A DNA stretch of 64,000 nt from Arachis hypogaea. Lineage: Eukaryota > Streptophyta > Magnoliopsida > Fabales > Fabaceae. The notes below the pieces were generated by a model. That model searched no databases. It saw nothing but the letters and a program-made list of their open reading frames with translations, and had not been told where the DNA came from. Shown piece after piece: positions 3,189 through 64,000 of the stretch; the first letter of the stretch is position 1, and each line of letters opens with the position of its first letter. The translations under genes and the position numbers were made by a program. Where the stretch lies: the NCBI RefSeq assembly GCF_003086295.3, contig NC_092054.1:16131878-16195877 (forward strand), written 5' to 3'.

Positions 3189-4363
3189 TGTCTAAAATGA
3201 ACACAATAATTATGTGCTTATTGGATGTGCCATATTTATATAGACCATTAAATTTTATTAGATGAAAATTAAAGGCTAATATAAAAGAAGAACATTGCTG
3301 GACTCTAATAAATACATAATATTCTAATACATAAACATATGTTTTAAATGACAATACTTTAATACACAAGACTTTAAATGGCAACAAAATCTTTTATTCT
3401 TAAATAATTAAATATAAAATATATAAATACAAAATATATGAATATTTTTTATTCATTAAGATTAATTATTATGTAAAAAATTTTTATAATACTAAAAAAT
3501 TATATTAAAATAATATTTTAAACTGTAACATAAAAATATAAAATAATTAAAAGTTTATTTTATATTACTTGACAAATAATTAAATTATTATATTTAAAAT
3601 TTATTAACTAGCTAATTTTATTAAAGATATTATTATATAATATAATTTTTCATCAAAATATTTTAAAATATAATTTATTTAAAGTATTTATATAATACAT
3701 AAAAATATTAATTTTTTATTTTTTAATTTTTTTAAAAAACAGAACATTTTAAATGCAAAAATATAAATATAAAATATATAAATACAAAAAATATAAATAT
3801 GTAATGAAAATGTTATAACATTTTCATGTATTATATATAATATTTTAAATAAATTATATTTTTAAAATATTTTGATAAAAAATTATATTATATAATAATA
3901 TCTTTAATAAAATTAGTTAGTTAATAAATTTTGAATATAATAATTTAATTATTTGTCAAGTAATATAAAATAAAATTTAATTATTTTATATTTTTATATT
4001 ACAATTTAAAATATTATTTTAATATAATTTTTTAATATTATAAAAGTTTTTACATAATAATTAATTTTAATAAATAAAGAATACTTATATATTTTGTATT
4101 TATATATTTTATATTTAATTATTTAAAAATAAAAAATTTTGTTGCGATTTAAAGTATTGTGTATTAAAGTATTATCATTTAAAATATTTATTTATGTACT
4201 AAAATATTCTGTGTTTATTAGAGTCTATCAATATTTTTTTTTATATTAACCTTTAATTTTTATTTAATAAAATCTAATTGTCTATATAAATATAACACAT
4301 CTAATAAACACATTTATAATACATCTAATAAACACATAATTATTGTGCTTGTTTTAGATATAT
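3189..4363. repeat. Long inverted repeat (foldback), arms about 520-550 bp
   Basis: The sequence from about 3189 to 3709 reappears inverted at about 3812-4363. Landmarks: tctaaaatgaacacaataat at the left edge versus attattgtgcttgttttaga at the right edge, and gactctaataaata at 3300 versus gtttattagagtct at about 4213-4227. The central 100 bp contains a smaller hairpin (gaaaatgttataacattttc). The arms are diverged but collinear. No ORF lies inside. It is either a long-TIR MULE/foldback element or an inverted duplication. I could not find a clear target duplication. Confidence 0.8.
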
Positions 4364-17120: not shown

Positions 17121-18070
17121 TTAAGTTTACAAATGAACTTAAAGCCAAAGTCGCTAGCTAGTACATTGATAATAATGTTCGTACAGATAACTCCCATCCA
17201 ATTTGTGATGTACCCATTGTAGATAGCATTACACATAATAAGCTTAAGAGATAGAATTTTGTTCACTGTCTGGGGTAGAATTGGGCTTGCAGCATATGCT
17301 GGTGTCCCTTAGTGCCACTTCCCTCTTTCATGGTGAATATCATGGTGAGATAAGTGAATACCACCATCTTTCATGGTGAAAATTCTTCAGTAGGGATATT
17401 TTTTTTTCCAGTCCCTAGATATTTTTCTTTTGGGGTCTTCCTCCTTGGTGGATAGTGTACATTCAACACCAAACTTACATTTGGTCTTAGGAGGGATTGA
17501 ATGAATTCCATCCAAGGGAGGAGGCTTGAATGCTAAATCCTTTGTGCAAGTGCCTCCCTTGTCAGGGGGTAATGGAGGGTCAAGAACCTTGAACACCATC
17601 CAGTCCTTATGCAAGGTAATCCTTGTTTCTTATACCTCTTGGATTTCCAACTTCTCCATTACAGAGAGTGGCATGAAGTTTGTACTTGATCCTAGGTCAC
17701 ACAGATCCTTCTCAAAGGTCATGGTGCCTATGGTGCAAGGAATCAGGAAGAGTCCAAGATCTAGAAGCATCTGAGGTAGCTTTTGCTAAACCAAAGCATG
17801 GAGTTCTTTGGAAAGCAATGGAGGTTCTTCTTCCAGAGGCTTTGTACCAAATAACTTGGCATTCAACTTCATAAGAGCTCCTAGGTACCGAGCAACTTGC
17901 TCTTCCCTAGTGTCTTCATCCTCATCAGAGGATGAGTATTCATCAGAACTTAGGCACTGCAAGAGTGCATTTAAAGGAACCTCTATGATCTTTATGTGAG
18001 CCTTGGTTTCTTTTGGTTTTGGGATAGGGTTTTTTGAGTGGGAATTGAGCATTCAGAAGGTGTGCTTTTG

Positions 18071-18466
18071 CTGGTGTTCAACGCCAACTCTAATAGCTCT
18101 TTGGGCGTTGAACGCCCAGGCTGTGCACCCTTACTGGCATTAAACACCGGTCCCCTTGTCATTTTGGGCGTTGAACGCCCAGTAGGGATGTCCTTGCTGG
18201 CGTTTAACGCCAGCTTCCCTGGCTGTGTGGGCGTTGAACGCCTAGTGAAGGGTTCCTCACTGGCGTTCAGTGCCAGAGTTTCTGACTGTTTGGGCGTTGA
18301 ATGCCTAGCCAGTGCTTCCTGACTGGCGTTCAACGCTAATTCTGCTGCCAGGATGGGCGTTGAACTCCCAGTGAGGGCTTCCTCACTGGCGTTCAGCCCT
18401 AGGCTTGCTGCCAGATTGGGCGTTGAACACCCAGTGAGATCTTTCTCACTGGCGTTCAATGCCTTC
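18071..18466. repeat. 63-bp tandem repeat with two near-palindromes per unit
   Basis: TGGGCGTTGAACGCCCA-type cores start at 18102, 18165, 18228, 18291, 18354 and 18417, exactly 63 bp apart. Each is paired with a second near-palindrome of the form CTGGCGTTCAACGCCAG about 31 bp away. Both words are palindromic except for the central base. On the minus strand this encodes about seven copies of a 21-residue repeat of the form LALNASEEALTGRSTP plus 5 variable residues, inside the gag-pro frame. Confidence 0.93.
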
Positions 18467-23772: not shown

Positions 23773-26700
23773 ATGCCAAAAAAATAAAGAGATGTTGATC
23801 GATCTGAGCTTCACATTATTCATTATCTTAATGATCCTGATTATGTAAGTTTTTTTTAAAATTTTTTTAAATTTTATTAATTTATTATGTTTATACTTAT
23901 TAATATTAAAAATTTAATTATTATGGTTGTTGTGAATAATACAATTAAAAAATATAGATAGAATGATTATTACTAATTTTTCAATATTTGTTAGATTTTT
24001 CAAAAAATTTTTTACAGATTTTTAATTATAGATATTATTACAGTGAAATTCGTTATTATTATTGTGGTCTGAAGACTTCCGAATGTAATAAAAAAAGATA
24101 ACTAAACAGGGAATGGTTACTTATTAATTAAGTGTAGAATGTAATTTTTTTTTAATTTATAATTAATTTTGAGTATAATTATGTGGGAGGAACGAACGCT
24201 AATATTTAAATGTTTTTTTAAACAATTAATTATAACTGTTACTGATGGAGAAGTTGATGTTAATGTTATTGTTATTGTGAGATAGTGTTAATGTTGAATG
24301 AGTAGTATGATTATTCTAATTAAGGCATGTTAGATTTTTTTATTATGAGAATATATAAATTTTCTTAATTGTCGTAATTATTATTAGCAAGTTAATTATT
24401 ACCATTGTTAGAATATGAGTTCCAACCAAGTTTGATCCGCTTGCTAGTTTCCTGATCCCGGGAGAGGCAGGGGGAGGTCTTTGTCATGATCCCATAAATG
24501 TACTACAGGCTCCCCGCTATGGTATGGTTCCATCGAATATCGAATAAGGTAACTTAAAATCCTCTGCGGTCTATGGTCTTTCCGTTTATGTCCAGTTGCT
24601 GTGATGGCATATACTGGTTGTTAATATTTTTTATTGTTGAGGGAAAAATGTTTAACAAATGAGTCATTAATATTAAAATTAATTCTAGATATTGTAACAA
24701 TATGGTTGAGAATTTTGATTAGCAATATATGTATTAGTAATGTTTTTTATTTGCAGTTGTGAATAGAATTTTAAGGATTAATTAAATAATTTTAGAAGTT
24801 AGAATAATTAGTTATATAAGGATTCAGTAAAATGATTGATGATGGTAGGTTAGTAATTGTTGTTGTTTATCTGACTAGTAATTTGTTATTTTTTTTGTAG
24901 AAATTAAGAATGTTGACATGTAACCATCCAGTTTCTCCGGATCGGTACAACAATAGGGTAGAGGAGCATCTACGAGTTACCGGTTTCTATCATGTATCTC
25001 AGATTGGGATAGTGCAGTGTTAAAAAGCATTGGTAAATGCTCTAATCGAACGTTGGCACCCGGACACACATACGTTTCACTTTCCCATTGGTGAATGTTC
25101 CGTGACTCTTGAAGATGTGGCTCTAATTCTTGGTCTTCCCACAGATGGTCTTCCAGTTACAGGAATGACAATGAGTAGTTTTGAAGCCATGGAGGCGGAG
25201 TGTTTGCTTCAATTTGGCGTTGCACCGCGTAAGGAGGACTGTAGATCTAGCTGCATCAAACTGACCTGGCTGCGGAATCTAAAAGAGAATTTAGAATTGA
25301 CCGATGAAATCAGTATACAAAGGTATGTGAGGTGCCACATTATGTTGCTGATTGGGACGATATTGTTTGGGGATAAGTCTAGGGCAGGCGTGCACTGGAT
25401 GTTTCTACCCTTGCTTCGTGATTTTGTCAATATTGGACAGTATAGCTGGGGATCGGCATGCCTAGCACACCTTTACAGGGCCCTATGTAGGGCATCTCGC
25501 TATAACTGTAAGGAAATAGATGGACCACTAACACTTCTGCTCGGTTGGGCTTGGATCCGACTGCCGTATCTATCACCGCTTCCTAGAGAATCCCGCAGCT
25601 TTCCACTAGCAAATAGGTAATATTATGTTACAATGTACCCGTTTCTTGATATTTAAGATTCAGTTGAGCTAATTGAAAATATCATATTAGGTGGCGTAAC
25701 TGGGAGTGTGGTGACCGACGATATAGATATCTGAAGCTAGCTCACTTTAGGAAGGCCTTTGATGAACTTCAGGAAGGCCAGGTGCGTTTTGATTAAAGAA
25801 GTATTACTTTTGGGTTTAGGGTCTTCGACAAAACTATGATGCATTGTTATTGTTATTTGAATTGTGGGTTCTAATCATGAGTTTCCCTTATTTTTCCAGT
25901 TTGTCTGGGTTGCTTATGCTGTAGATCGTGTGGATCCGAACATAATTTATCCTGAAATCTACATGCAATCGGTTGTATGGAGCGCTACAGTTCCGTTGGT
26001 GTCCTTTGAATGTATCGAGTGGCATGCCACCGATAGGGTCAGGCGCCAGTTCGGTTTCGTTCAGGGAGTACCTACTCAGGAGCAGAACCTGGATAAGGCG
26101 CATGGGGAGGTACTGACTGGTCCGAAGAATCTTAACTGGGCCACAGCACCGAGTCATTCAATTTGGGTGATGCATTGGATAAACAGGTATCACTACGTTC
26201 TTTCTGAGCTTTCCATCCCTTCACAGCATCCATTGGATACTTACATGAACTGGTACCGAACAAAATTTGGGAACCGCTTAGCATTGTCAAATCTTGTGGG
26301 TGAAGAGGATGCGGGTAATGAGGATATGGATTAGGGTAATCAGGATACCGATGAGGGTAGTCAAGATATGGATGAGGACAATGAAGAATAGGAGCCACAT
26401 ATATCACCTCCAATTCCGCTTCCACAAGAACAACCTCAGCCCTCAAACCAGTTTGTACCTCATACACAGTTCACCCCATCATTTCCAATGCAGCAACAAT
26501 ATTGGAGTATGTCACAGTTTGAAACAGGCGAAGGAGGTTCTTTTAGCCAGTTCTTTCAGCCTGAGTTCATGCCAGGCAGGTATTCGTTGGATGCGAGGTA
26601 TCCAGGCCATACCTCATCCGTTGCTTCCGAGGGGTTCGTATCTGTTGATGACTCTAGTAGGAGTGAGGGTGGACGAGGTGTTCTCAATAGTCAAAATCCT

Positions 26701-27264: not shown

Positions 27265-29210
27265 CAGTTCGGTGACCAAGCTCCGTTACTGCGTTCCACA
27301 GCTGCATTGATGGACTCGTGCCTGTCGGATATTAGACCGACACCATCCCGAGTTACAACATGTTGATGCAGGTTACTAAGGAAAAAATGTCATGCATCAG
27401 AAGTCTCTCCCTCCACAATAGCAAACGCAATTGGGACGATATTGTTGTTGCCATCCTGTGAAACTGCCACAAGCAGACAACCCTTATACTTTCCGTACAA
27501 GTGAGTCCCATCCACCTGGACAATTGGCTTACAATGTCTGAATGCCCTAATACAAGGGTAATAACTCCAAAATACACGATGCAGTACCCAAATATCACCC
27601 ACCAAGTTATCGCCTTGATATGCAGGCATAGTCTCAAAATGGACAACAGCAGATGGCTCCTTGTGACACATGGCCTCAAACCATATAGGCAACGCCTCAT
27701 AAGAGGCTTTCCAACCTCCAAATATTTTTTCTACTGCCCTTTGCTTAGCCAACCATGCTTTCTGGTAGCTCACGGTGTAGTTGAACTTCGATTGCACTTC
27801 TGCTATAACCGATTTTACCTTTAAGGAGGGGTCAGCCTCAACCAGTGGCTTTATTGCTTCTGCAATTGTGATAGAATCCAGTTTCGAATGATCCTGTGAA
27901 ATGGTGGCTCTGGTACAGGTGTGACTACCATTATACCTCCTTATAACCCAACAGTACTTCCTGCTGATCAAGCTAACCCTGATAACCCAATCACACCCTG
28001 ACCCATACTGTGTACACTTGGCATAAAATGTCAACGGCTCAGACTCATACACCCGGTAGTCTACGCTTCGTCGTATCGTATACTCTTTTACCGCCTTAAT
28101 AACAGCTTCTCTGGAACTGAACTCCATACCAATGGCAAATTCACCATTTGCGACAATAGGAACTTCTGCTGCGACAGCCACCATTGGAAAAAAATTTCAT
28201 TAATACACAGGTATTTCAAAACCGATTCTAAAGGTAAATCAAATTTCACTGCATCCAGTATGCTATAACTCCAGACTTTGCAACATGTTATTATGTCACT
28301 CTAAACAAAATAAGAACATAAGCAGCAAATGTAAAAACTAGAGCGGACCGGCCGATTCGATCGGCAAACCAAACAAACCGGACCGGTCCGGTCCGATTCA
28401 CAGAGTTTGAACCGTACAACGGATGGAACCTGTGCAAATAATAATGTCCACAAACTCACGCATTTTGTAATAACCATATTATAGAGAAATTTAATATTAT
28501 TTTCTAATAAATACTAGTAGTATATAACAGTTAAAAAAGTAAATTTTCTATTAGTGGTAAATATTGTAATAACCCGGTTCGATCGTGACAACCACTACAT
28601 TCAACGCATGATTAATTAATGGTAAATAAAAAGTAAATTATTCATAACTCAATCAATGTCTAACTAAAAAAATCCTAATACCACGATTACGTTACCTGCA
28701 GTCATATATTCCGGATATTCCGGAACATGCATGGCTTCCAAGTCCAACACTCGCATGAATGATGGCTCCTCAAACGGCACTTCGTTTGCGAGTGCATTTG
28801 CCACTTCTGTCACATCTGGGGCCATGGTTCCGTCACCTTGATCTTCATCTCCATATGGACCAACAAATTCGTAGTTGCTTTCGAACTCTTCTTCACTGTC
28901 ACTGTTATAATCTTCCTGTAGAATATTCCGGTCAGCCTCAGATTGTTCAAACTCAACATACAACTCGATAAACGAGATCTGAGACCGGTTTTTAATATAC
29001 ATTGAAAACATCTCCTGCATGCTCGCTTCGTCCGTCACATATTTGGTTTGATACTGGATGAATCCACCAAATACTGGTATGGGATATCTGTATAGGATAC
29101 AGGATATCTTTCTTGCCCGCTCAGAATTAATCTTTTCACAAATTACACCTTTGAGTTCTTCAAATGAGATAATAAAAGGAATAACAAGATCTAGTGGGTT
29201 TTTACAAATA
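27265..29210 (-). pseudogene. MULE (MuDR-type) transposase, truncated
   Basis: This is the transposase of the same element. Exon 1 (about 29210-28696, donor GT at 28695) encodes an N-terminal region with FEELKGVICEKI, YRYPIPVFGGFIQYQTKYV, SMQEMFSMYIKNRSQISFIE, then an acidic stretch and ANALANEVPFEEPSFMR. Exon 2 (from about 28184) carries the MuDR-type DNA-binding region (GMEFSSREAVIKAVKEYTIR, then CTQYGSGCDWVIRVS with its Cys/His residues). The start of the MULE catalytic domain follows: VQVDGTHLYGKYKGCLLVAV holds the first Asp and LISDRHESI the second. A TGA at 27392-27390 replaces the Trp expected after SDA. The gene stops matching after ERSNGAWSP (about 27285), so the catalytic Glu, the C-terminal half and the SWIM zinc finger are deleted. 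The element could not move itself. Confidence 0.87.
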
Positions 29211-31771: not shown

Positions 31772-32843
31772 CAACATTTTGGGTATATGGCCACGATTTT
31801 TTTTTATTACGGTCTATGGCTACGATTTTTTTGGTCACGGTAAAAAACCGTAATTATAGATCCTCTATGGTCACAGTTTTTTACTGTGACAAAAAAAAAG
31901 CTATGGTCACGGATTTTGGAAAAAAAGTGACCATAGAATACTTATGATTACGGTTTTTTAAAAAAGGATGGCCTAAAGGGGTCTATGGTAATCGTTTTTT
32001 ACAGTGACCAAAAAAGGTCTATGGTCACAGTTTTTCAAAAAAGGATGACCTAAAAGGGTCTATGGCCACGGTTTTGGGGGGTGACCTAAAAGGGTCTATG
32101 GTCACGGTTTTGGGGGTGACCTAAAGAGGTCTATAGTCACAGTTTTTTACAGTGACAAAAAAGGGGTCTATGGTCATGGTTTTTCAAAAAAAGGTGACCT
32201 AAAACGGTCTATGGTCACGATTTTAGGGGGTGACTTAAAAGGGTCTATGGTCTCGGGTTTGAGAGTGACCTAAAGGAATCTATGGTAACGGTTTTGGGGG
32301 TAACCTAAAGGAGTCTGTAGTCACGGTTTTAGGGGTGACCTAAAGGGGTCTATGGTCACGGGTTTTCGAAAGGGTGACCTAAAAAGGTCTATGGTCACGG
32401 TTTTGGGGGGTGATCTAAAAGGGTCTATGGTCACGATTTTGGGAGGTGGCCTAAAGAGGTCTACGATCACAGTTTTTGGGGGTGTGACCTAAAAGGGTCT
32501 ATGGTCACGATTTTTTGAAAGGATGACCTAAAAGGGTCTACGATCACGGTTTTAAGGTGGGATGACCATAGATAAGGCTATGGTCACGGTTTTAAGGAGG
32601 AGTGACCATAGAGTCTATGATCACGGTAAAAAAACGTGGTCTAAAATGTCAGAATTTAAAAAATGAAACCGTGACCATAGATAAAAAAAGCTGTGACTAT
32701 AGATCTATAGCCACGAAAGAATAAGTCACAATAAAAAACCGTGACTATAATTCCAAAACCGTGACCATAGATCTATAGTCACCCTTTTTATTAGCTATAG
32801 TTACGATTTTTTACCATGACCATAAGCCCTTTTTTTTGTAGTG
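31772..32843. mobile_element. CACTA-type element remnant made of subterminal repeats
   Basis: About 1 kb of diverged tandem copies of a 35-50 bp word around ctatggtcacggttttgggg and tgacctaaaaggg. The right 150 bp carry the inverted form (ccgtgaccatagat). The right end is ttttttttgtagtg, the reverse complement of CACTACAAAAAA. The left end (caacattttgggtatatggc) is degenerate. It has no coding sequence. The duplicate copy of the flanks at 35740 shows the site without the insertion. Confidence 0.75.
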
Positions 32844-33319: not shown

Positions 33320-33737
33320 TGATGGGAATAAGACACCATTCCTCCTTGAGAAAACACCTTTAACAGAGAAATAAAATAAACACAATCACAACACAAGAAT
33401 TTAACGTGAAAACTTCAATTATCGGAAAAAAAAACCACGGCCGTTGTCAAATGACAACCAGAGATATCACTATGTGAAAATTGTTACAACATATAGACTT
33501 CTTTCTCTCTAACACCGACACCCCAGTACACCCACACTCTCTCAAAGCAAATCTCTAACTACACCTCACAACACTCTCTAATCAAAGAGTACAGAGGAAA
33601 AGAAAAATCAGATACAAGCTTAAAGTGTTTCTGACTGGTGCAAAAACAAATGGAGAACTTAGCCTCATATTTATAGCCTAGGCCCACTCCATTTGCTATC
33701 CTAAGCAATGTGGGACTAATTCAACCAAATCCTAACA
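33320..33737 (-). repeat. Left LTR (3' LTR on the minus strand), 418 bp
   Basis: Near-identical to 34574-34994; differences are scattered substitutions and short indels (for example ggcccactcc versus ggtcacccactcc). Contains agtcccacattgctt near its minus-strand start. Confidence 0.92.
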
Positions 33738-34573: not shown

Positions 34574-34994
34574 TGTTGGGAATAAGACACCATTCTCCCT
34601 TGAGAAAACACCTTTGACAGAGAAATAAAATAGACACAATCACAACACAAGAATTTAACGTGGAAACTCCAATTACCGGAGAAAAAATCACGGCCGTTAT
34701 CAAATGACAACCAGAGAATATCACTATGTGAAAATTGTTACAACACATAGACTTCTTTCTCTCTAATACCGGCACCCCAGTACACCCACACTCTCTCAAA
34801 GCAAATATCTAACTACACCTCACAACACTCTCTAATCAAAGAGTACAGAGGAAAAGAAAAATCAGATACAAGCTTAAAGTGTTTCTGACTGGTACAAAAA
34901 CAAATGGAGAACTTAGTCTCATATTTATAGCCTAGGTCACCCACTCCATTTGCTATCCTAAGCAATGTGGGACTAATTCAACCAAATCCTAACA
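34574..34994 (-). repeat. Right LTR (5' LTR on the minus strand), 421 bp
   Basis: Begins TGTTGGGAATAAG and ends ATCCTAACA on the + strand, so it has canonical TG..CA ends. Followed by the target duplication GCAGG. Confidence 0.93.
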
Positions 34995-42846: not shown

Positions 42847-43154
42847 GGTTTAATTACTCTGTTGGTTCCTATAGTTTTGCAAAATTTTCAATTAGGTCCC
42901 TATACTTTTTTTCTTTTTAATTGAGTCCTTGTACCAATTTTTTTTAATTGGATCCCTACACTTTTTTTTTTTTTTATTTAGGTCCCTATACCAATTCTTT
43001 TTTTTAGTTGGGTCCCTATAAAATTAAGCCAATTACTGCTAAGAGGGACTTAATTAAAAAAAAATTTAGTGCAGGGATCTAATTAAAAAGAAAAAGTATA
43101 GAGATTTAATTGAAAATTTCACGAAACTATAGGGACCAACAGAGTAATTAAACC
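42847..43154. mobile_element. MULE-type MITE, 308 bp, perfect 9-bp target duplication
   Basis: The ends GGTTTAATTACTCTGTTGGT and GGTTTAATTACTCTGTTGGT (reverse complement of the right end) agree over 20 bases, and inverted similarity extends inward through caattaggtccctatac-type words. It is flanked by TATATTTAA at 42838-42846 and 43155-43163. It has no coding capacity. From recollection it belongs to a very common legume repeat. Confidence 0.94.
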
Positions 43155-43246
43155 TATATTTAATTCCCATGGAAATAGAATCTAAATAACAAAGTAATAC
43201 TTGAACCACACACACATCCTTAGGATAAGAAAAGGATAAAAAAAAT

Positions 43247-43584
43247 TGTTACGAACCAGCTCCCAACTTAGACTTAAGACGATGACGAGTCGAAGAATGC
43301 TCTTTTATTAGGAGTATTTAGATTCTCTTATGATTTTCTTTCGAACACTATAAATAAATAGCTCAACATAGGTCTAAAGTATGTATTATTTAATCCTAAT
43401 TTTTATATCTCTTGAATCAATACTGATTTGAGTGTCAAAATTCTTTATTGGTAAACTCCTCCGTATGTCATTGTTAGGTCATAGGATCACCTCCAACTAA
43501 AAATCTGCCATTCTATCTTCTCCTTCTAACCAACTTAGCTTCTGACCAACTTAGCTGATGATTCAAGTTATATCTTCCAAAACA
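43247..43584 (+). repeat. 5' LTR of a gypsy-type element
   Basis: Starts TGTTACGAACC and ends near aaaaca. It contains a TATA box (ctataaataaata, about 43348-43360). It is followed by tggcacc at 43586, a degenerate form of the TGGCGCC PBS of gypsy elements, and then by a leader and gag. No matching 3' LTR is seen in the window. Confidence 0.7.
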
Positions 43585-43585
43585 T

Positions 43586-44210
43586 TGGCACCATATTTAA
43601 AAATTTTCACTCAACAACAATCTTAAAAAACTACCTCTAGATGCACTACTTACAACAAATTTTTCTATTTATTTTTCTAATATTTTTTCTCTTTCTTCTT
43701 TTCTTTTTCTTTTGAGATGTGGTTTACGACCCCACCAATCTTTTCTCGGAGAACACAGGATGATTTGATGGCCATCTTCAACACCAAAACTTTAAATATC
43801 TGGTCATTTCAGAAGCAACTAATGAAAGCCCTCAACAGCAAGAACATACTCTCCTGAAATAAATCATTAGTCAAGACGACAAATTATGTGGTTTAGAAAA
43901 AAATTATCCTCCAATAGAATCCTCAAAATCAACAAGATTTCCAAATCTAAGATGAGGTCATGCAAATAGCGGAAGACCTGGCCGAAAAGGAAGTGCGAAT
44001 CCTTGTAGATATCAAGTGCAGTGAGTGCAAGTGCCAAAAAAATTAAAACTCAGACTAAAACACAAACAATGGGAATAACGAGCTCTCTCACTATCAAATA
44101 GCCACAGAGATCTCGAAACACTCTTACTCTAAGACAGAAGCTGTTGAGCTCCCAACAAAACAACCCAAGGCTTCACAGGTAGGGGCAGGGGTTGAAATTC
44201 TTACCTGTTT
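43586..44210 (+). pseudogene. PBS, leader and N-terminal gag of the array-bearing gypsy element
   Basis: After the degenerate PBS comes an A/T-rich leader and then broken frames such as FTTPPIFSRRTQDDLM (about 43725-43770), AEDLAEKEVRILVDIK (about 43970-44020) and an SKTEAVELPTKQPKASQ stretch (about 44125-44180), which resemble the poorly conserved N-terminal part of gypsy gag. It runs into the first tandem unit at 44211 without a gap. Confidence 0.55.
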
Positions 44211-44943
44211 TTTGCAGAGATCCTCAACAAAGAAATTCCAAAAAAATTTTTCATTCTACGATTGACCCACAATACTATATGAATGCTTCTAAAAATTGAA
44301 TGGTCCTCTAAGAAGTCTCAAATATCCAAAACGTATTTCAGCTCATATTTCATTATGTAAAAATTAGAAGAATCTTCGAGACGCTTCCTGAACAGTTTAA
44401 ACACATAATATACTCAAGTAGTGCTCATGGCTCTAGTAAAAGAGTTGAGAGAAGATAAGTCCTTTTAGAAAAACCTCACTAAGAACATCATCATACCATG
44501 AGAGAGATCCAAGATTTTGTGCATAACTACTTGCATCAAGAAAAGGGTTAAAAAGTAATAAAGTTCAACCACTATCGTTGAAAATACCCCCAAAAATTCT
44601 ATTCTACGGACGACCAATTGAAGCACAACTAGAGCTCCATTAAAGACAACTAGAACACCACCTTGTTTACGACTTTAAACATCTAATTGGCTTAACTGTA
44701 CTACGAGATATGCCAGCCATAAGGATGAATCATAAATTTCTGCTATTTGCATTCCACAACCTTCTAGAAAAAAAGATTCAGTTGCAGATGCCACCAAGCT
44801 AACAAACATGACACAAAGATACAAAGACTTTTACAATAAAGTCGAGTTGGGACTTAAGAAGAAAACTTTTAGAAATATATGGCCAAGTGAAACAAGAGAA
44901 GCGAATCTAAAATGAGCACAAAAGAAAAATATGCTATCCATTC
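44211..44943 (+). repeat. Array unit 1 (type-1-like start, type-3-like end)
   Basis: 733 bp. It lacks the aatctaagacttttagtct segment present in later units. Its late marker is acaataaagtcgagttggga (type 3). Confidence 0.85.
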
Positions 44944-47196
44944 TTTGTCGAGATCCTTAATAAAGAAATTTAAAAAAAGTTTTTCATCCTACGATTGACC
45001 CACAACACCATCGGGATACTTTTAAAAATTGAATTGTCCCTAAGAAGTCTCAAATATCCAAAACGTGCCTCAGCTCATATTTCATTATGTAAAAATTAGA
45101 AGAATCTTCAAGACGCTACCTGAACAGTTTAAACACATAATATACTCAAATCTAAGACTTTTAGTCTCAAGTAGTGCTCATGGCTCTAGTAAAAGAGTTG
45201 AGAGAAGACAAGTCCTTTTAGAATAGCCTCACTAAAAACATCATCATACCTTGAGAGAGATCCAAGATTTTGTGCATAATTACTTGCATCAAGAAAAGAG
45301 TTAAAAAGCGATAAAGTGCAACCACTATCATCGAAAACACCCCCAAAAATTACATTCTACGGATGACCAATTGAAGTACAACTAGAACTCCATCAAAGAC
45401 AACAAGAACACCTTGTTTACGGCTTTAAATATCTAATTGGTTTAACTATACTACGAGATATCTCAGGCATAGGGATGAATCCTAAATCCCTACTCTTTGC
45501 ATTACATAACATTCAAGAAAAAAATATTTAGTTGCAGATGCCACCAAGCTAGCAAACATGACACAAAGATACAAAGACTTTTACAATAGGGTCGAGTTGG
45601 GGCTTAAGAACAAAAACTTTTAGAAATATATGGCCAGGCAAAACAGGAGAAGCGAATCTAAAAGGAGTAAAAAAGAAAAATATGCTACTAATTCTTTGCA
45701 GAGATCCTCAACAAAGAAATTTCAAAAAGATTTTTCATCCTACTATTGACCCACAACACCACCTGGATACTTTTAAAAATTGAATGGTCCTTTAAGGAGT
45801 CTTAAATATCCAAAACGTGCCTCAGCTCATATTTCATTATGTAAAAGTTAGAAGAATCTTCGAGAGGCTCCCTGAACAGTTTAAACACATTATATACTCA
45901 AATCTTAGACTTTTAGTCCTAAGTAGTGCTCATGCTCTAGTAAAAGGTTTGAGAGAAGACAAGACCTTTTAAAAAAGCCTCACTAAGAACATCATCATAC
46001 CATGAGAGAGGTCCAAGATTTTGTGCATAACTACTTGCATCAAGAAAAAGGTTAGAAAGCGATAAGGTCGATCCACTGTCGTTGAAAATACCCGCAAAAA
46101 TTCCATTCTACGGATGACCAATTGAAGCACAACTAGAGCTCCATCAAAGACAACTAGAAAACCTCGTTTACGACTTTAAATGTCTAATTGGCTTAACTGT
46201 ACTACGAGATATATCAGGCATATGGATGAATGCTAAATCCCTGCTCCTTACATTCGACAACGTTCTAGAAAAAAAGATTCAGTTACAGATGTCACCTATC
46301 TAACAAACATGATACAAAGATACAAAGACTTTTAAAATAGGGTCGAGTTTGACTCAAGAACAAAAACTTGTAGAAATAAAAAGCCAAGTGAAACAGGAGA
46401 AGCGAATCTAAAAGAAGCAAAAAAGAAAAATATGCTACTCGTTCTTTGCAGAGATCCTCAACAAAGAAATTCTAAAAAGGTTTTCCATCCTATGATTGAC
46501 CCACAACACCACTTGGATGTTTTTAAAAATGGAAATGTCCTCTAAGGAGTCTCAAATATTCAAAACATGCATCAGCTCATATTTCATTATGTAAAAGATA
46601 GAAGAATCTTCGAGTGGCTAACTAAACAGTTTAAACACATAATATACTCAAATCTAAGACTTTTAGTCACAAACAGTGCTCATGGCACTAGTAAAAGGGT
46701 TGAAAAAAGATAATCCCTTTTAGAAAAGCCTCACTAAGAACATCATCGTACCATGAGAGAGATCCAAGATTTTGCGCATAACTACTTGCATCAAGAAAAG
46801 GGTTAAAAAGCGATAAAGTCCAACCACTATTGTCGAAAATACTCCCAAAAGTTCCATTTTACGGATGACCAATTGAAGCACAACTAGAGCTCTATCAAAG
46901 ACAACTAGAACACCTCGTTTACGGCTTTAAACATCTAATTGGCTTAACTGTACTACGAGATATGACAGGCATAAGGATGAATCCTAAATTCCTGCTATTT
47001 GCATTCCACAATCTTCTAGAAAAAAAGATTCAGTTGCATATGCCACCAAGCTAACAAACATAACACAAAGATACAAAGACTTTTGCAATAAAGTCGAGTT
47101 GGGACTTAAGAAGAAAAACATTTAGAAATATATGGCCAAGTGAAATAATAGAAGCGAATCTAAAATAAGCACAAAAGAAAAATATGCTATCACTTC
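44944..47196 (+). repeat. Higher-order block 1: units 2-4 (types 1-2-3)
   Basis: Type 1 (44944): gaattgtccctaagaagtc, 'agtctcaagtagtg', 'ggtcgagttggggctt'. Type 2 (45695): gaatggtcctttaaggagtc, 'catgctctagtaaaaggttt', 'cgagtttgactcaag'. Type 3 (46445): ggaaatgtcctctaaggag, 'agtcacaaacagtg', 'aaagtcgagttgggactt'. The three-unit order defines a repeat of about 2.25 kb. Confidence 0.88.
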
Positions 47197-48698
47197 TTTG
47201 TTGAGATCCTTAACAAAGAAATTTAAAAAAGATTTTCCATCCTACGATTGACCCACAACGCCACTTGAATACTTTTAAAAATTGAATTGTCCCTAATAAG
47301 TCTCAAATATCCAAAACGTGTTTCAGCTCATATTTCATTATGTAAAAGTTAGAAGAATCTTTGAGACGCTTCCTGAACAGTTTAAACACATAATATACTC
47401 AAATATAAGACTTTTAGTCTCAAGTAGTGCTCATGGCTCTATTAAAAAAGTTGAGAGAAGTCAAGTCCTTTTAGAAAAGCCTCACTAAAAACATCATCAT
47501 ACCATGAGAGAGATCCAAGATTTTATGCATAATTACTTGCATCAAGAAAAAAGTTAAAAAGCGATAAAGTCCAACCACTATCGTCGAAAATACTCCCCAA
47601 AAATTCCATTCTACAGATGACCAATTGAAGCACAACTAGAGCTCCATCAAAGACAATAAGAACACCTCGTTTATGGCTTTAAATGTCTAATTGGTTTAAC
47701 TATACTACGAGATATCTCAGGCATAAGGATGAATCATAAATTCCTGCTCTTTGCATTCCATAACATTCAAGGAAAAAAATTTAGTTGCAAATGCCACCAA
47801 ACTAACAAACATGACAAAAAGATATAAAGACTTTTACAATAGGGTCGAGTTGGGGCTTAAGAACAAAAACTTGTAGAAATATATGGCCAGGCGAAATAGG
47901 AGAAGCAAATCTAAAAGGAGCAAAAAAGAAAAATATGCTACTCGTTCTTTGCAGAGATCCTCAACAAAGAAATTCCAAAAAGGTTTTTCATCCTACGATT
48001 GACCCACAACACCACCTAGATACTTTTAAAAATTGAGTGGTCCTTTAAGGAGTCTCAAATATCCAAAACGTGCCTCAGCTCATATTTCATTATGTAAAAG
48101 TTAGAAGAATCTTTGAGAGGTTACCTGAACAGTTTAAACACGTAATATACTCAAATCTAAGACTTTTAGTCCCAAGTAGTGGTCATGCTCTAGTAAAAGG
48201 TTTGAGAGAAGACAAGACCTTTTAGAAAAGCCTCACTAAGAACATAATCATACCATGAGAGAGGTCCAAGATTTTGTGCATAACTACTTGCATCAAGAAA
48301 AAGGTTAAAAAGTGATAAATTCCAACCACTATCGTCGAAAATACCCCCAAAAGTTCTATTCTACAGATGACCAATTGAAGCAAAACTAGAGCTCCATCAA
48401 AGACAACTAGAACACCTCGTTTACGGCTTTAAACATCTAATTTACTTAACTGTACTACGAGATATGCCAGGCATAAGGATGAACCCTAAATTCATGCTAT
48501 TTGCATTCCACAACCTTCTAGAAAAAAAGATTCAGTTGCAGATGCCACCAAGCTAACAAACATGACACAAAGATACAAAGACTTTTGCAATAAAGTCGAG
48601 TTGGGACTTAAGAAGAAAAATGTTTAGAAATATATGGCCAAGTGAAACAATAGAAGCGAATCTAAAATGAGCACAAAAGAAAAATATGCTATCAGTTG
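47197..48698 (+). repeat. Higher-order block 2: unit 5 (type 1) and recombinant unit 6
   Basis: Unit 6 (47948-48698) begins with the type 2 markers (gtggtcctttaaggagtc, tcatgctctagtaaaaggtt) but ends with the type 3 marker (aaagtcgagttgggactt). It therefore looks like a 2/3 recombinant, and one unit is missing from the 1-2-3 order. Confidence 0.85.
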
Positions 48699-50967
48699 TT
48701 TGTTGAGATCCTTAACAAAGAAATTTAAAAAAGGTTTTTCATCCTACGATTGACCCACAACACCACCTGGATACTTTTAAAAATTGAATTGTCCCTAAGA
48801 AGTCTCAAATATCCAAAACGTGTTTCACCTCATCTTTCATTATGTAAAAGTTAGAAGAATCTTCGAGACGTTTCCTGAACAGTTTAAACACATAATATAC
48901 TCAAATATAAGACTTTTAGTCTCAAGTAGTGCTCATGGCTCTATTAAAAAATTTGAGAGAAGTCAAGTCCTTCTAGAAAAGCCTCACTAAAAACATCATC
49001 ATACCATGAGAGAGATCCAAGATTTTATGCATAACTACTTGCATCAAGGAAAGAGTTAAAAAACGATAAAGTCCAACCACTATCGTCGAAAATCCCCCCC
49101 AAAAATTCCATTCTACGGATGACCAATTGAAGCACAAATAGAGCTCCATCAAAGACAATAAGAACACCTTGTTTACGGCTTTAAATGTCTAATTGGTTTA
49201 ACTATACTACGAGATATCTCAGGCATAGGGATGAATCCTAAATCCATCTCTTTGCATTCCATAACATTCAAGGAAAAAAAATTTAGTTGCAGATGCCACT
49301 AAGCTAACAAACATGACAAAAAGATACAAAGACTTTTACAATAGGGTCGAGTTGGGGCTTAAGAACAAAAACTTTTAGAAATATATGGCCAGGCAAAATA
49401 GGAGAAGCGAATCTAAAAGGAGCAAAAAAGAAAAATATGCTACTCGTTCTTTGCAAAAGAAAAATATGCTACTCGTTCTTTGCAGAGATCCTCAACAAAG
49501 AAATTCCAAAAAGGTTTTTCATCCTACGATTGACCCACAACACCACCTGGATACTTTTAAAAATTGAATGGTCCTTTAAGGAGTCTCAAATATCCAAAAC
49601 GTGCCTCAGCTCATATTTCATTATGTAAAAGTTAGAAGAATCTTCGAGAGGCTATCTAAATAGTTTAAACACATAAAATACTTAAATCTAAGACTTTTAG
49701 TCCCAAGTAGTGCTCATGATCTAGTAAAAGGTTTGAGAGAAGACAAGATCTTTTAGAAAAGCCTCACTAAGAACATAATCATACCATGAGAGAGGTCCAA
49801 GATTTTGTGCATAACTACTTGCATCAAGAAAAATGTTAGAAAGCGATAAGGTCGAACCACTGTCGTCGAAAATACTCCCAAAAATTCCATTCTACGGATG
49901 ACCAATTGAAGCACAACTAGAGCTCCATCAAAGACAACTAGAACACCTCGTTTACGACTTTAAATGTCTAATTGGCTTAACTGTACTACGAGATATGATA
50001 GGTATAGGGATGAATTCTAAATTTCTGCTCCTTACATTTCTCAACGTTCTAGAAAAAAAAATTCAATTGCAAATGTCACCTAGCTAACAAACATGAAACA
50101 AAGATACAAAGACTTTTACAATCGGGTCGAGTTTGGACTGAAGAACAAAAACTTGTTGAAATAAATAGCCAAGCAAATCTAAAAGAAGCAAAAAAGAAAA
50201 ATATGCTACTCTTTCTTTGCAGAGATCCTCAACAAAGAAATTCTAAAAAGGTTTTCTATCCTACGATTGACCCACAATACCACTTGGATGCTTTTAAAAA
50301 TGGAAATGTTCTCTAAGTAGTCTAAAATATCCAAAACGTGCCTCAGCTCATATTTCATTATGTAAAAGATAGAAGAATCTTCGAGTGGTTAACTAAACAA
50401 TCTAAACACATAATATACTCAAATCTAAGACTTTTAGTCATAAACAGTGCTCATAGCTCTAGTAAAAGGGTTGAAAGAAGATAATCCTTTTTGGAAAAGC
50501 CTCACTAAGAACATCATCATACCATGAGAGAGATCCAAGATTTTGTGCATAGCTACTTGCATCAAGAAAAGGGTTAAAAAGCAATAAATTTCAACCACTA
50601 TCGTCGAAAATACTCTCAAAAGTTTCATTTTACGGATGACCAATTGAAGCACAACTAGAGCTCCATCAAAGACAACTAGAACACCTCGTTTACGGCTTTA
50701 AACATCTAATTGGCTTAACTGTACTACGAGATATTCCAATCATAAGGATGAATCCTAAATTCTTGCTATTTGCATTCCACAACTTTCTAGAAAAAAAGAT
50801 TCAGTTGCAGATGCCACCAAGCTAACAAATATGACACAAAAATACAAAGACTTTTACAATAAAGTCGAGTTGGGACTTAAGAAGAAAAACTTTTAGAAAT
50901 ATATGGCCAAGTGAAACAAGAGAAGCGAATCTAAAATGAGCAAAAAAGAAAAATATACTATCCGTTC
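48699..50967 (+). repeat. Higher-order block 3: units 7-9 (types 1-2-3)
   Basis: The full 1-2-3 order is present. Unit 7 is 780 bp because of a perfect 29-bp tandem duplication (49426-49454 and 49455-49483) at its end. Confidence 0.88.
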
Positions 50968-53018
50968 TTTCTTGAGATCCTTAACAAAGAAATTTTAAAA
51001 AGGTTTTTCATCCTACGATTGACCCACAACACCACCTGGATACTTTTAAAAATTGAATTATTCCTAAGAAGTCTCAAATATCTAAAACATGCCTCGGCTA
51101 ATATTTCATTATGTAAAAGTTTAAAGAATCTTCGAGACGCTACCTGAACAGTTTAAACACATAATATACTCAAATCTAAGACTTTTAGTCTCAAGTAGTG
51201 CTCATGGCTATAGTAAAAGAGTTGAGAGAATCCCTTGTTTATGGCTTTAAATGTCTAATTGGTTTAACTATACTACGAGATATCTCAAGTATAGGGATGA
51301 ATCCTAAATCCATGCTCTTTGCATTCCATAACATTCAAGGAAAAAGATTTAGTTGCAGATGTCACCAAACTAACAAACATGACACAAAGATACAAAGACT
51401 TTTACAATAGGGTCGAGTTGGGGCTTAAGAACAAAAACTTTTAGAAATATATGGCCAGGCGAAACAGGAGAAGCGAATCTAAAAGGAGCAAAAAAGAAAA
51501 ATATGCTACTCGTTCTTTGCAGAGATCCTCAACAAAAAAATTCCAAAAAAGTTTTTCATCCTACGATTGACCCACAACACCACCTGGATACTTTTAAAAA
51601 TTGAATGGTCCTTTAAGGAGTCTCAAATATCCAAAACGTGCCTCAGCTCATATTTTATTATGTAAAAGTTAGAAGAATCTTTGAGAGGCTACCTGAACAG
51701 TTTAAACACATAATATACTCAAATCTAAGACTTTTAGTCCCAAGTAGTGCTCATGCTCTAGTAAAAGGTTTAAGAGAAGACAAGACCTTTTAGAAAAGCC
51801 TCACTAAGAACATCATCATACCATGAGAGAGGTCCAAGATTTTGTGCATAACTACTTGTATCAAGAAAAAGGTTAGAAAGCGATAAGGTCGAACCAAGGT
51901 CGTCGAAAATACCCCCAAAAATTCTATTTTACAGATGACCAATTGAAGCACAACTAGAGTTCCATCAAAGACAACTAGAACACCTCGTTTATGACTTTAA
52001 ATGTCTAATTGGCTTAACTGTACTACGAGATATGATAGGCATAGGGATGAATGCTAAATCCCTGCTCCTTACATTCCACAACGTTCTAAAAAAAAAGATT
52101 CAGTTGTAGATGTCACCTAGCTAACAAACATGATACAAAGATACAAAGACTTTTACAATAGGATCGAGTTTGGACTCAAGAACAAAAACTTGTAGAAATA
52201 AATAGCCAAGCGAAACAGGAGAAGCGAATCTAAAAGAAGCAAAAAAGAAAAATATGCTACTCGTTCTTTGCAGAGATCCTCAACAAAGAAATTCTAAAAA
52301 GGTTTTCCATCCTACGATTGACCCACAACACCACTTGGATGCTTTTAAAAATGGAAATTTTCTCTAAGGAGTCTCAAATATCCAAAACGTGTCTCAGCTC
52401 ATATTTCATTATGTAAAAGATAGAAGAATCTTCGAATGGCTAACTAAACAGTTTAAACACATAATATACTCAAATCTAAAACTTTTAGTCACAAACAGTG
52501 CTCATGGCTCTAGTAAAAGGGTTGAAAGAAGATAATCCCTCTTAAAAAAGACTCACTAAAAACATCATCATACCATGAGAGAGATCCAAGATTTTGTGCA
52601 TAACTACTTGCATCAAGAAAAGGGTTAAAAAGCGATAAAGTCCAACCACTATTGTCGAAAATGCCCCCAAAATTTTTTTTCTACGGATGACCAATTGAAG
52701 CACAACTAGAGCTCCATCAAAGACAACTAGAACACCTCGTTTACGGCTTTAAATGTCTAATTGGCTTAACTATTGTACGAGATATGTCAGCTATAGGGAT
52801 GAATCCTAAATTCCTGCTCTTTACATTCCACAACATTCTAGGAAAAAATATTAAGGTAAAGATGCCACGAAGGTAACAAATATGACACAAAGATATAAAG
52901 ACTTTTACAATAGGGACAAGTTGAGGCTTAGGAACAAAAACTTTTAAAAATGTATGGCCAAGCAAAATAGGAGAAGTGAATCTAAAAGGAGTACAAAAGA
53001 AAAATATGTTACTCGTTC
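50968..53018 (+). repeat. Higher-order block 4: units 10-12, unit 10 with a ~200-bp deletion
   Basis: Unit 10 (548 bp) jumps at about 51229 from 'agagttgagagaa' to 'tcccttgtttatggc', losing about 200 bp but keeping type 1 markers on both sides. Unit 11 is type 2. Unit 12 begins as type 3 (ggaaattttctctaaggag, agtcacaaacagtg) but ends in a diverged form (aggctta). Confidence 0.88.
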
Positions 53019-55364
53019 TTTGCAGAGATCCTCAACAAAGAAATTCCAAAAAGGTTTTTCATCCTACAATCGACCTACAACACCACCTGGATACTTTTAA
53101 AATTTAATGATCCTTTAAGGAATCTCAAATATCCAACACGTGCCTCAGCTCATATTTCATTATGTAAAAGTTAGAAGAATCTTCGAGAGGGTACCTGAAT
53201 AGTTTAAACACATGCTATACTCAAATCTAAGACTTTTAGTTCCAAGTAGTGCTCATGGTTCTAGTAAAAGGGTTGAGAGAAGACAAGCTCTTTTAAAAAA
53301 GTCTCACTCAGAACGTCATCATACCATGAGAGAGATCCAAGTTTTTGTGCATAACTACTTGTACAAAAAAATGTGTTAAAAAGCAATAAAGTTCAACCAC
53401 TGTCGTCGAAAATATCCCCAAAAATTTCATTTTACGGATGACCAATTGAAGCACAATTAGAGCTCAATCAAAGACAACTAGAATACCTCGTTTACGACTT
53501 TAAACATGTAATTTTTTTAGCTGTACTACAAGATATCCCAGGCATAGGGATGAATCCTAAATCCTGCTCTTTGCATTCCACAACCTTCTAGAAAAAAAGA
53601 TTCAGTTGCAGATGCTACCAAGCTAACAAATATGACACAAAGATACAAAGACTTTTACAATAGGATCGAGATGGGACTTAAGAACAAAAACTTTTAGAAA
53701 TATATGTCTAAGGAAAACAGGAGAAGCGAATCTAAAACTAGCACAAAAGAAAATATGCTACCCGTTCTTTGCAGAGATCCTCAACAAAGAAATTTCAGAA
53801 AGGTATTCCATCATTTGATTGATCCACGACACCACCTCATTGCTTTTAAAAATTGGATGGTCCTCTAAAGAGTCTCAAATATCCAAAACGTGCCTCAGCT
53901 CATATTTCATTATGTAAAAGTTAGAAGAATCTTCGAGAGGCTACATGAACAGTTTAAACACATAATATACTCAAATCTAAGACTTTTAGTCCCAAGTAGT
54001 GCTCATGGCTCTAGTAAAAGGGTTGAGAGAAGACAAGCCATTTTAGAAAAGCCTCACTAAAAACATCATCATACCATGAGAGAGATCCAAGATTTTGTGT
54101 ATAACTACTTGCATCAAGAAAATGGTTAAAAAGCGATAAAGTCCAACCACTATCATCGACAATACCCCCGAAAATTTCATTTTACGGATGACCAATTGAA
54201 GTATAACTAAAGCTCCAACCAATATAACTAGAACACCTCGTTTACGACTTTAAATGTCTAATTGGCTTAACTGTACTACAAGATATGCCAAGCATAGGAA
54301 TGAATCCTATATCCCTGCTCTTTGCTTTCCACAACGTTCTAGGAAAAAAGATTCAGTTGCAGATGCCACCAAACTAACAAACATGACACAAAGATACGAA
54401 GACTTTTACAATAGGGTCGAGTTGGGACTTAAGAACAAAAGCTTTTAGAAATATATGCCCAAGCGAAATAGGAGAAGCGAATCTAAAAGGAGCACAAACG
54501 AAATTATGCTATCCGTTCTTTGCAGAGATCCTCAACAAGGAAATTTCAAAAAAGTTTTCTATTTTATGATTGACCCACAACACCATCTGGATGCTTTTAA
54601 AAATTGAATGGTCCTCTAAGGCGTCTCAAATATCCAAAACGTGTCTCAGCTCATATTTCAATATGTAAAAGTTAGAAAAACCTTCGAGAGGCTACCTGAA
54701 TAGTTTAAACACATAATATACTCAAATCTAAGACTTTTAGTCCCAAGTAATACTCATGGCTCTAGTAAAAGGGTTGAGAGAAGACAAGCCCTTTTGAAAA
54801 GGCCTCACTAAAAACATCATCATACCATGAGAGAGATCCAAAATTTTGTGCATAACTACTTGCATCAAGAAAAGGATTAAAAAGCGATAAAGTTCAACCA
54901 CTATCGTCGACAATACCCCCGAAAATTCCATTTTACGGATGACCAATTGAAGCACAACTAGAGCTCCAACCAATACAACTAGAAGACCTCGTTTACGGCT
55001 TTAAATGTCTAATTGGCTTAACTATACTACGAGATATACCAGGTATAGGGATGAATCCTAAATCCCTGCTCTTTGCATTCCACAACGTTCTAGGAAAAAA
55101 GATTCAGTTACAGATGCTACCAAGCTAACAAACATGACACAAAGATACAGAAACTTCTACAATAGGGTCGAGTTGGGGCTTAAGAACAAAATTTTTTTGA
55201 AATATATGGCCAAGTGAAACAGGAGAAGCGAATCTAAAAGGAGCATAAAAGAAAAATATGCTACTCGTTCTTTGCAGAGATCCTCAACAAAGAAATTTCA
55301 AAAAGGTTTTTCATTCTATGATTGACCCGCAACACCACCTGAATGCTTTTAAAAATTGAATAGC
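53019..55364 (+). repeat. Array tail: units 13-15 and a partial unit 16, not in the trimer pattern
   Basis: These units share features with each other ('gaaagttagaa', 'agggttgagagaagacaagc', 'gacaatacccccg' in 14 and 15) rather than with types 1-3. Unit 16 stops after 94 bp, at ttaaaaattgaat, where unique sequence begins. Confidence 0.85.
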
Positions 55365-55445
55365 TGATCATTTCGACTACGATTTAGCCAACAATGCCAT
55401 CATAGGGAGATCAACCCTCAATAAAATATGTGCAACAAGGCAACA
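55365..55445 (+). pseudogene. Gypsy protease/pre-RT fragment after the array
   Basis: The frame reads DHFDYDLANNAIIGRSTLNK, which resembles the 'YNAILGRP.LN' segment at the end of the gypsy protease domain. Together with the LTR and gag start at 43.2-44.2 kb, this shows that the array sits inside a gypsy element. The rest of pol is missing. Confidence 0.7.
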
Positions 55446-56500
55446 TTGTTTAGTGTCCATGGACATGGATACGATAGCACATATCTACCGTTTATTTAAT
55501 AGGATACAAATTTTTTTATGGACAAGTTGGAACACAAGTATAGCTAAAATATGTGTCTTCAGTATCTCTTCTTTATCCTGAAACACTAAGATACAATTTT
55601 TTTTGTCCCTTCTTTTATCATTAAATTTCGATTTTGTCCTTATGGTAACCCTAATCCTAATCACCTTATTCCCTTTCACCGTTTCTTTTCGCTGATCTGT
55701 TTCTCCTTCCATTGTCACCTTCCTCCTTCCTCCTTCTTCTTTCCTTCATCTGCCTTACCCACTGTAACCCTCCTTTACACGTCACGCCACCGTCCTCCTT
55801 TCTTCTTCTTCCTCTTCTCTAATTCTTCCTTCCTCCCCTTCCTCCTATTTCATCCCCTCCCAGTTCATCACTTTCAAAGTCTCATCTCTTTCATTTCTCA
55901 TTCTTCCAAATCAAGATCATCTGTCACAGTCATGTTGTTGTCATCGCTATTCACCGTCTTGTCTGCCACCGTTCCTAGATCTGCCATTGCATATGCTTCA
56001 AGTCACGTTTGTCATCGTTTTTAGTATCTCTAACTTACAGATTTATTTTTCTCCATTTTTTTCTTTAAATTTGCCTCTCTCTCATGCAATTATCTTCTTC
56101 TACCTGTCTTCCATGCAATCTATCTTTTTTATTTGAGTTCTTTGCTGTTTTTTAATTGTATATTTAATTTTTTCATTTATTTGAATTTTAATTAATGTTT
56201 ATTAGATCTGCTGATGTTTTGTCTAATTAAATTTGTTGATTAATTTAAAAGTTATAAATAGTAATAGAGAAGTGGTGTTAGTGATAATACAGAAGAAGTG
56301 ATAGTAATAATGATGGTAATTTTTTTATGATAAAAATAATATTAAGGACAATATTAACCTTTATAATTTATTATTCTATTTTATATATAATTACTAAATA
56401 AACTAAAAAAATTATGTCTCATTATATTTATGTCTTCAATATTTATATTTTTTTTGTCTCTATCTTAATTCATGCATCAATCGAATGCAATCTAACTGCC
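55446..56500. other. Unclassified TE-like segment with a pyrimidine-rich core
   Basis: Begins agtgtccatggacatggata, then a T/C-rich block with 'cttcctccttcctcc' words (55640-55960), then an AT-rich tail with atgtcttcaatatt. It cuts off the gypsy element abruptly, as an insertion would. I do not recognise the family; frames in it are low-complexity. Confidence 0.35.
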
Positions 56501-62359: not shown

Positions 62360-64000
62360 TTACTACAAAAAAATATTGAGTATCATCAAATTTACCGTCG
62401 CAGGGTAGTGGCAGATTTACCGGCGTAACGACGTCGAATTCATAAGGTTAACTAATTACCGATGGATTCTGCTTTTCGACGGTAAATCTGACGGTAATAT
62501 TTGAAGGAAAAATAAATTAAATTGGCACGTCCTTCATCGTCGGAAAAATCTGAAGATAACTTCAATTAGTAAATGCTACGTTTTGGTATTCCGCAATGGA
62601 TTACCGTCGGAAATTTCGACGGTAAATTTGAATCACAAACCCTCTTCCCCCTAATTTGAAACCATCACCACCATCCCTCTCTCTCTCTGCTTCCAGTGTT
62701 GCCGCCACCACCACCTACCGCCACGACCAAGACCACCACCGTCGGCACCCCCTCTCGGTCGCTCTCAACCCACCATCGACCCCTCCTTCTTCTCCTTCTT
62801 CCCCATCCCCTCTCTGTCTCCTTCCAGTATCACTGTGACCACCATCTGCCACCAGCGCTGAGACTACCACTATCGGCACCCCCTCTCCGTTGCCATCAAC
62901 CCACCGCCGACCCCTCCTTCTTCTCCTTCTTTCCCTCTGCTCCTCTCTCCTCGTGCTGTCAAACGACTCTCGCCCCTGTCATCATTGCGCCGACGCTGCC
63001 TAGCCTTCGGTGAGTTCACCATCCTTCAGCGATCGCCCTTCCACCACCTATAGGCTATAGCTTCGGCGACCACCATTCCGTCGTTCTGCATTCCAGGTTT
63101 TTTTTAACTCTGTTTCTCTTTCTTCTTCAAAATCTATTTTGGTTAGGTTGTTTCATTATTCTAATTTTAGTTAGTTAATTTAGTTAGAGTTATTTTTTTA
63201 TTTTAGTAAATTTTAGGTGGTTAGAGTAGGTTAGTTTTAGGATTATTAATTTGTATTATATTAGTGAAAGTGTTGAAAATTGACTGAATTGATGGATAAT
63301 GCTCCTGATTTTGTGTTGAATATGCTGAAATTGTGGGAATTGATGTTAAAAGACTATTTATTTTGTTGAACAATTACTGAAATTTGGTTGAATAGTATTG
63401 ACTTGAAGAAGAGGCTGACAACTGTTACTTAGTTGCATTGATTGTGCATCTTTGATGTATGTGCTTGCCAAGTGTTCGTTTATATCCCTCTATGTATATT
63501 GTCCATTTTAAATTGTATGTTGTAGCTACCATGTGATTTAGGATGTTTGATTTTTGCTTGGGATAGTTAATTAAATCTATTTGTGATATAGGATTGCAAT
63601 GTGTTGGATATTATTTACTAATTAAGTTTTGTGTATGTATGTTGTGTGTAACTGCCAAGTTGCTTGATTGAAGTATTTTCCACACTTAGTATCTGATTTA
63701 GATCCAATAATGCACATTATGATTGATATGGTTGTATTCTAAGATAGTTGCTATTCAGATCATCAAATGTTGAACATAATATTGTAGCATTAGTTATAGG
63801 AATTACCTAGGTATTGTTATAATTTATTGTTGATTTGTTGTGCTGAATTTCTGTTAATTGGTATGTTGTTTACAAACATTACGACAAGTAGAGGTGCTAC
63901 GGATCAGGCTGTTGGTCGTGGTCATAGCCGTGGTCAGGGAAAAGGGAGGGTTTCTTCTGGTGCCCCCGGAACTTCTGGATCCTCTCCCTCTACTCCGACC
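62360..64000 (+). mobile_element. CACTA element B, 5' part, runs off the window
   Basis: The end ttactacaaaaaaatattga is a degenerate CACTACAAAAA terminus. Subterminal cggtaaatctgacggtaa and accgtcggaaatttcgacgg words follow, then a C-rich leader (62640-63090), an intron-like T-rich stretch and a coding exon. It is collinear with element A at 10964-15054. Confidence 0.8.
63892..64000 (+). CDS. Transposase_24-type protein, first coding exon (partial)
   Basis: The frame reads SRGATDQAVGRGHSRGQGKG followed by RVSSGAPGTSGSSPSTPT, open to the window end. It matches the same exon in element A, where a TAG replaces the Gln of the ADQA segment; this copy keeps Gln, so it may be less decayed. The protein continues outside the window. 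Confidence 0.6.

Follow-up and report, generated by a model that had tools for sequence, protein, structure and literature searches.

An old 11-kb tandem array with an ordered trimeric core and a possible retrotransposon gag origin in Arachis hypogaea

How does the higher-order arrangement of a tandem repeat begin? The beginnings of higher-order repeats (HORs) are usually hidden in very large arrays. A stretch of 64,000 nucleotides from Arachis hypogaea (contig NC_092054.1, positions 16,131,878 to 16,195,877), hereafter the window, in which all positions below are counted, contains an array of only 16 units with both the core and the edges fully visible, so its steps are legible unit by unit. 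The best explanation of this array, to which we give a probability of roughly 0.58, is that a decayed segment, most likely of a Ty3/gypsy gag, was tandemly duplicated in or beside a dead copy of its parent element, after which a trimer of units was copied as a block and the process stalled.

The tandem array and its three unit types

The array is made up of a 751-bp unit repeated head to tail on the forward strand at 44207-55360, with 14 units (U01-U14) and one partial unit at either end (U00 and U15), as defined by blastn and unit cutting. This agrees with the about 15 tandem copies of ~751 bp described in an earlier note on this DNA. When the unit at 46001-46800 was used as the blastn query against the window, 16 tandem matches including the query itself were obtained at 44207-55360, and no further copy was found elsewhere in the 64-kb window at an E-value of 1e-5. 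Among shifts of 200-5999 bp tested over 43-57 kb, the top self-match was 751 bp, followed by 5821 bp. TRF missed the array because its run covered periods up to 500 only.

According to pairwise identity and the tree, the eleven consecutive units U01-U11 fall into three types, namely A (U01, U04, U06 and U09), B (U02, U05, U07 and U10) and C (U03, U08 and U11), which follow one another as ABC-AB-ABC-ABC. The first trimer (44497-46751, +) consists of U01, U02 and U03, starting at 44497, 45249 and 46001. The second (46752-48253, +) is incomplete, with U04 (from 46752) and U05 (from 47503) and no C unit. The third (48254-50522, +) contains U06, U07 and U08, starting at 48254, 49005 and 49785, and the fourth (50523-52573, +) contains U09, U10 and U11, starting at 50523, 51230 and 51822. 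The trimeric order proposed in the earlier note thus holds, its units 2-4, 5-6, 7-9 and 10-12 being our U01-U03, U04-U05, U06-U08 and U09-U11. Unit-specific indels are scattered across the array. U07 carries a 29-bp tandem duplication (49426-49484) and U08 a 14-bp gap, while a shared deletion at the U09/U10 boundary has removed about 200 bp and cut both units.

Within types, the mean identity was 94.05% (range 92.5-95.8%, 15 pairs), as compared with 87.8% between types (85.8-89.6%, 40 pairs), and the two ranges showed zero overlap across U01-U11. Forty alignment columns, a count that leaves out the missing start of U10, were fixed within types and differed between them. As these columns are spread along the unit, the linked diagnostic variants reported earlier were confirmed as well.

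The order was also evident from identity as a function of distance. Over U01-U11 the mean identity was 88.0% at lag 1, 89.2% at lag 2, 91.4% at lag 3, 88.1% at lag 4, 92.6% at lag 5 and 94.2% at lag 8 (3 pairs). Units three apart were therefore on average more alike than neighbours, as the earlier note had expected, but lag 3 was not the highest value. Because U05 is followed by U06 with no C unit in between, same-type units also stand 2, 5 and 8 apart, and hence lags 5 and 8 exceed lag 3. The observed difference between lag 3 and lag 1 was reached in 196 of 20000 shuffles of the unit order for U01-U11, and in 64 of 20000 for U01-U14. With the types fixed, 17 of the 11550 possible orders broke the A>B>C cycle no more than once, or 34 of 11550, by symmetry, if either direction of the cycle is counted. 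It should be pointed out that the types were taken from the same identity matrix, so these counts test the order and not the existence of the types.

In the IQ-TREE analysis, B (support 100/99) and C (100/100) formed strongly supported clades and A (93/91) a moderately supported one. The forks within types, from which the order of the block copies would be read, were partly poorly resolved. The array thus shows the properties by which HORs are recognised: monomer types recur in a repeated order, same-type monomers are closer to each other than to their neighbours, and monomers cluster by type. In an active alpha satellite HOR, however, multimer copies are nearly identical through recent homogenisation, and no such near-identity was found here, with only 92.5-95.8% within types. 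Hence the array is HOR-like and old, and not an active HOR array.

The units at the edges behave differently, a feature absent from the earlier note. U00 (44207-44496, +), a partial unit lacking about 21 bp, and U12-U15 (52574-55360, +; U15 partial) fit none of the three types, with U12 joining B loosely in the tree (86/81). Of the 86 sites at which the majority of one type stands apart from both others, 74 showed on balance the common state in the edge units and 8 the state of the departing type, with 4 ties. Untyped edges are to be expected if unequal exchange acted in the core, and they fit an older array of single units whose trimer was later copied in the core.

The source of the unit and its flanks

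The broken reading frames mentioned in the earlier note were borne out, since most stop codons are common to nearly all units. Of the 38 stops in the three consensus frames, 29 were absent from at most one of the 13-15 units scored per site, and in the presumed gag frame this held for 7 of 10 stops. If the unit was ever read in that frame, an already broken sequence was therefore amplified. The array has no coding role.

By its motifs, the frame running from 'DPQHHLDTFKN' to 'MREIQDFVHNYLHQE' and 'FTALNV' has the look of what we take to be Ty3/gypsy gag, and Ty3/gypsy gag is the likeliest, though unproven, source of the unit. Database searches returned no match to it. No gag family was found in Pfam at E up to 10 with 17 proteins from the array and flanks, comprising four consensus pieces, five frames with X at the stops (two of them flank frames), two cross-frame joins with X, and six units with the stops read as residues. 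Five Pfam families came up in the six-unit scan, each in one of the six members and with a best E of 0.011, and were taken as chance. Protein database searches gave no homologue at E up to 10 (7, 1337 and 17 candidates per search), and a PDB profile search gave no match. With four stretches of the gag frame as tblastn queries, the best E in the rest of the window was 2.2, and a literature search for a seven-letter gag motif found nothing. AlphaFold modelled the read-through frame as helices only, at a mean pLDDT of 41.7; fold matches from a model of this kind are meaningless, and it is unusable for identification. Likewise, no Rfam family was detected in 43000-56500, and ARAGORN returned nothing over the whole window. 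The missing gag match among the 17 proteins weakens the gag assignment of the earlier note without refuting it, given that the query is badly decayed, that the search had no known plant gag as a positive control, and that the protein database may be poor in plants.

Period-3 evidence for a coding origin of the unit was mixed. The power of the whole consensus was 3.02, a value matched by none of 2000 base shuffles and by one in 2000 simulations under a first-order Markov model, which averaged 0.68. Among 197 other segments of the window, 10 reached at least 3.02, and 6 of these 10 overlap listed reading frames. The values of 13 single units ranged from 1.0 to 2.7. When only the stretch carrying the presumed gag frame was taken (consensus 531-752 then 1-230), the power was 1.52, which 5.7% of 2000 shuffles also reached.

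The flanks were inspected by eye for remains of a parent element. Upstream of the array, a putative 5' LTR-like stretch (43247-43586, +) contains a TATA-like box near 43350 and has a TGG resembling a primer-binding site right behind it, at 43587 (+); the remaining left flank (43587-44206, +) may hold a leader and an N-terminal remnant of gag. The right flank (55361-55500, +) contains a frame, 'FDYDLANNAIIGRSTLNKI' / 'NAIIGRSTLNKI', whose motif resembles the last part of a Ty3/gypsy protease. The right flank gave no match in Pfam or the protein database, and the left flank none in Pfam. Nor did the window contain a second copy of the LTR-like stretch (43200-43700) or of either flank, or an LTR pair close around the array. 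The only direct repeats on either side of the array are separated by about 51 kb (10990-11403 with 62415-62817, 67%; 12416-12547 with 63869-64000, 82%). That they are the LTRs of the array is improbable; they resemble a pair of copies of some other dispersed repeat, running into the window end. That the array is still inside its parent element, as the earlier note had it, is therefore unproven, the two LTRs of such an element being absent from the window; a truncated parent element is possible. The left flank and the end of the unit share 10 of 15 bases, a likeness reached by 0.15% of 44000 window 15-mers and rejected as too weak for a breakpoint homology.

These observations bear on the most serious rival explanation, according to which the array is a single small, old locus belonging to a larger satellite family with its main arrays in other places, and the likeness of the unit to gag is distant or due to chance. 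The lack of a gag match in any search, the weak period-3 signal of the presumed gag frame and a between-type distance of about 13%, which suggests a long history, all speak for such a family. On the other hand, the period-3 signal of the whole consensus and the element-like flank motifs, which by eye stand in the expected order, speak against it, and the verified repeat unit that a paper on complete peanut genomes mentions as serving to find such regions is one of 116 bp, not 751 bp (PMC13175896). We regard this explanation as unlikely, and a decayed gag segment amplified at the locus itself as the better one.

Related repeats and the centromere question

The earlier note had treated higher-order repeats as the hallmark of centromeric satellites. 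This is overstated: what marks a centromeric satellite is abundance at centromeres or binding by CENH3, and a higher-order structure does not by itself point to a centromere; any old tandem array may acquire one by unequal exchange. Among plant and animal HORs, a fixed order of monomer types and trees that cluster by type were clear in 76 of the 171 species with Sanger data (PMC4053949). The HORs treated there are candidate centromere repeats, whereas the present array is small.

Retrotransposon-derived arrays, gag pieces included, are already in print, and the present array is a clear small example of that kind. In two papers, the rye satellite E3900 and a Cereba-related 250-bp repeat of wheat, Aegilops and rye are described as similar to an LTR retrotransposon gag frame (PMC9659126, PMC3648361). 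Likeness to gag would be the common feature with our unit, for which a gag origin is presumed from motifs. PMC3648361 calls the 250-bp repeat centromeric; here one 11-kb locus with trimeric order is known. The same source covers maize CRM1TR and CRM4TR, tandemly arrayed derivatives of Ty3/gypsy elements that occur at few loci, for which illegitimate recombination and gene conversion were proposed, and a legend in its supplement mentions higher-order similarity between alternating internal repeat units (PMC3648361). According to that text, CRM1TR and CRM4TR arose from around the LTR-UTR junction, not from gag as presumed here.

A legume case is provided by the FabTR satellites of Lathyrus sativus, which are tandem repeats of Ty3/gypsy Ogre elements, some of them expanded into longer arrays (PMC7004042). 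Their source is the 3' UTR, and for the nine Ogre-derived repeats the monomer is reported as the longest period detected, so that no higher-order period occurs there, unlike in the present array (PMC7004042). By analogy with the 3' UTR arrays of Ogre, our array might already have been inside a retrotransposon while the element was active and have spread with it, as is known for nine Lathyrus satellites (PMC7004042). The Lathyrus arrays, however, lie downstream of gag-pol, while the unit here would lie within gag, and 7 of the 10 gag-frame stops are each missing from at most one unit, so that it is hard to see a working element carrying the array as its gag. An origin in an active element is thus quite improbable, and amplification in or beside a dead copy is preferred.

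Age and course of the array, and other features of the window

The most alike pair of units was 95.8% identical, i.e. 4.2% different. The mean K2P distance was 0.0625 for pairs of the same type, with a minimum of 0.0439, and 0.135 for pairs of different types. With substitution rates of 8.12e-9 and 1.3e-8 per site and year, these values correspond to means of 2.4-3.8 million years within types and 5.2-8.3 million years between types, and to 1.7-2.7 million years for the closest pair. C>T and G>A accounted for 348 of 702 changes from the consensus, and since they make up half of all changes, the computed ages may be too old. C>T changes were more frequent at CG (25/191) and CHG (24/153) than at CHH (138/1762), an excess that follows the pattern of methylated plant DNA and suggests that the array has been methylated. 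As none of the unit pairs is recent either way, the array looks stalled and decaying, and the view of a satellite at birth put forward in the earlier note is unsupported. An assembly artefact can hardly account for the array, because an assembly error would scarcely produce or merge units that differ by more than 4% even in the closest pair, and because the unit-specific indels are spread over the array.

We consider the following course the most likely. A decayed coding segment would have been duplicated in tandem inside or beside a dead LTR retrotransposon copy, and the units would then have diverged from one another. Three adjoining diverged units, A, B and C, may next have been copied several times as one block, by out-of-register unequal exchange or by conversion, with one copy of the trimer losing its C unit. 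Exchange was probably rare at the edges, where the units would have kept the older untyped sequence. Finally, turnover would have stopped, to be followed by deletions and decay, much of it presumably by C-to-T change as in methylated plant repeats. Of this course, the tandem state, the types, the missing C, the deletions and the decay can be seen in the sequence itself, whereas the exchange and the element it started from are inferred.

A bolder claim is that a dead retrotransposon copy turned its own broken gag segment, in place and without a centromere, into a full satellite architecture with an ordered trimer core and ancestral-like untyped edges, and hence that the locus is a self-contained record of the origin of an HOR. 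We put this forward tentatively, as a possibility with the odds against it. Should the unit occur nowhere else, it would show that a small array is enough for higher-order order to arise, irrespective of where on a chromosome the array lies.

Several other features were observed in the window. The two diverged direct repeat copies mentioned above, about 51 kb apart, extend over 10990-12547 and 62415-64000, the latter reaching the window end. An imperfect 1.1-kb palindrome at 3212-4313, 87% identical to its own reverse complement, may be a MITE or a foldback element. At 18068-18463, a 63-bp tandem repeat with palindromes of the 'GGGCGTTGAACGCCC' type lies within a minus-strand open frame, and an array of a ~36-bp unit (15.8 copies by TRF, with further periods of 77 and 149) occupies 31953-32627. 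Direct repeats of about 420 bp at 33320-33737 and 34574-34994, with 94.8% identity and a spacing of about 0.8 kb, may represent the LTR pair of a short element. Frames with a plant mobile domain (PF10536, E 4.2e-47 and 7.8e-12), which support a flowering plant as the source, are located at 25024-26334 on the forward strand, and near them, on the opposite strand, a MuDR/MULE transposase fragment lies at 27390-28196.
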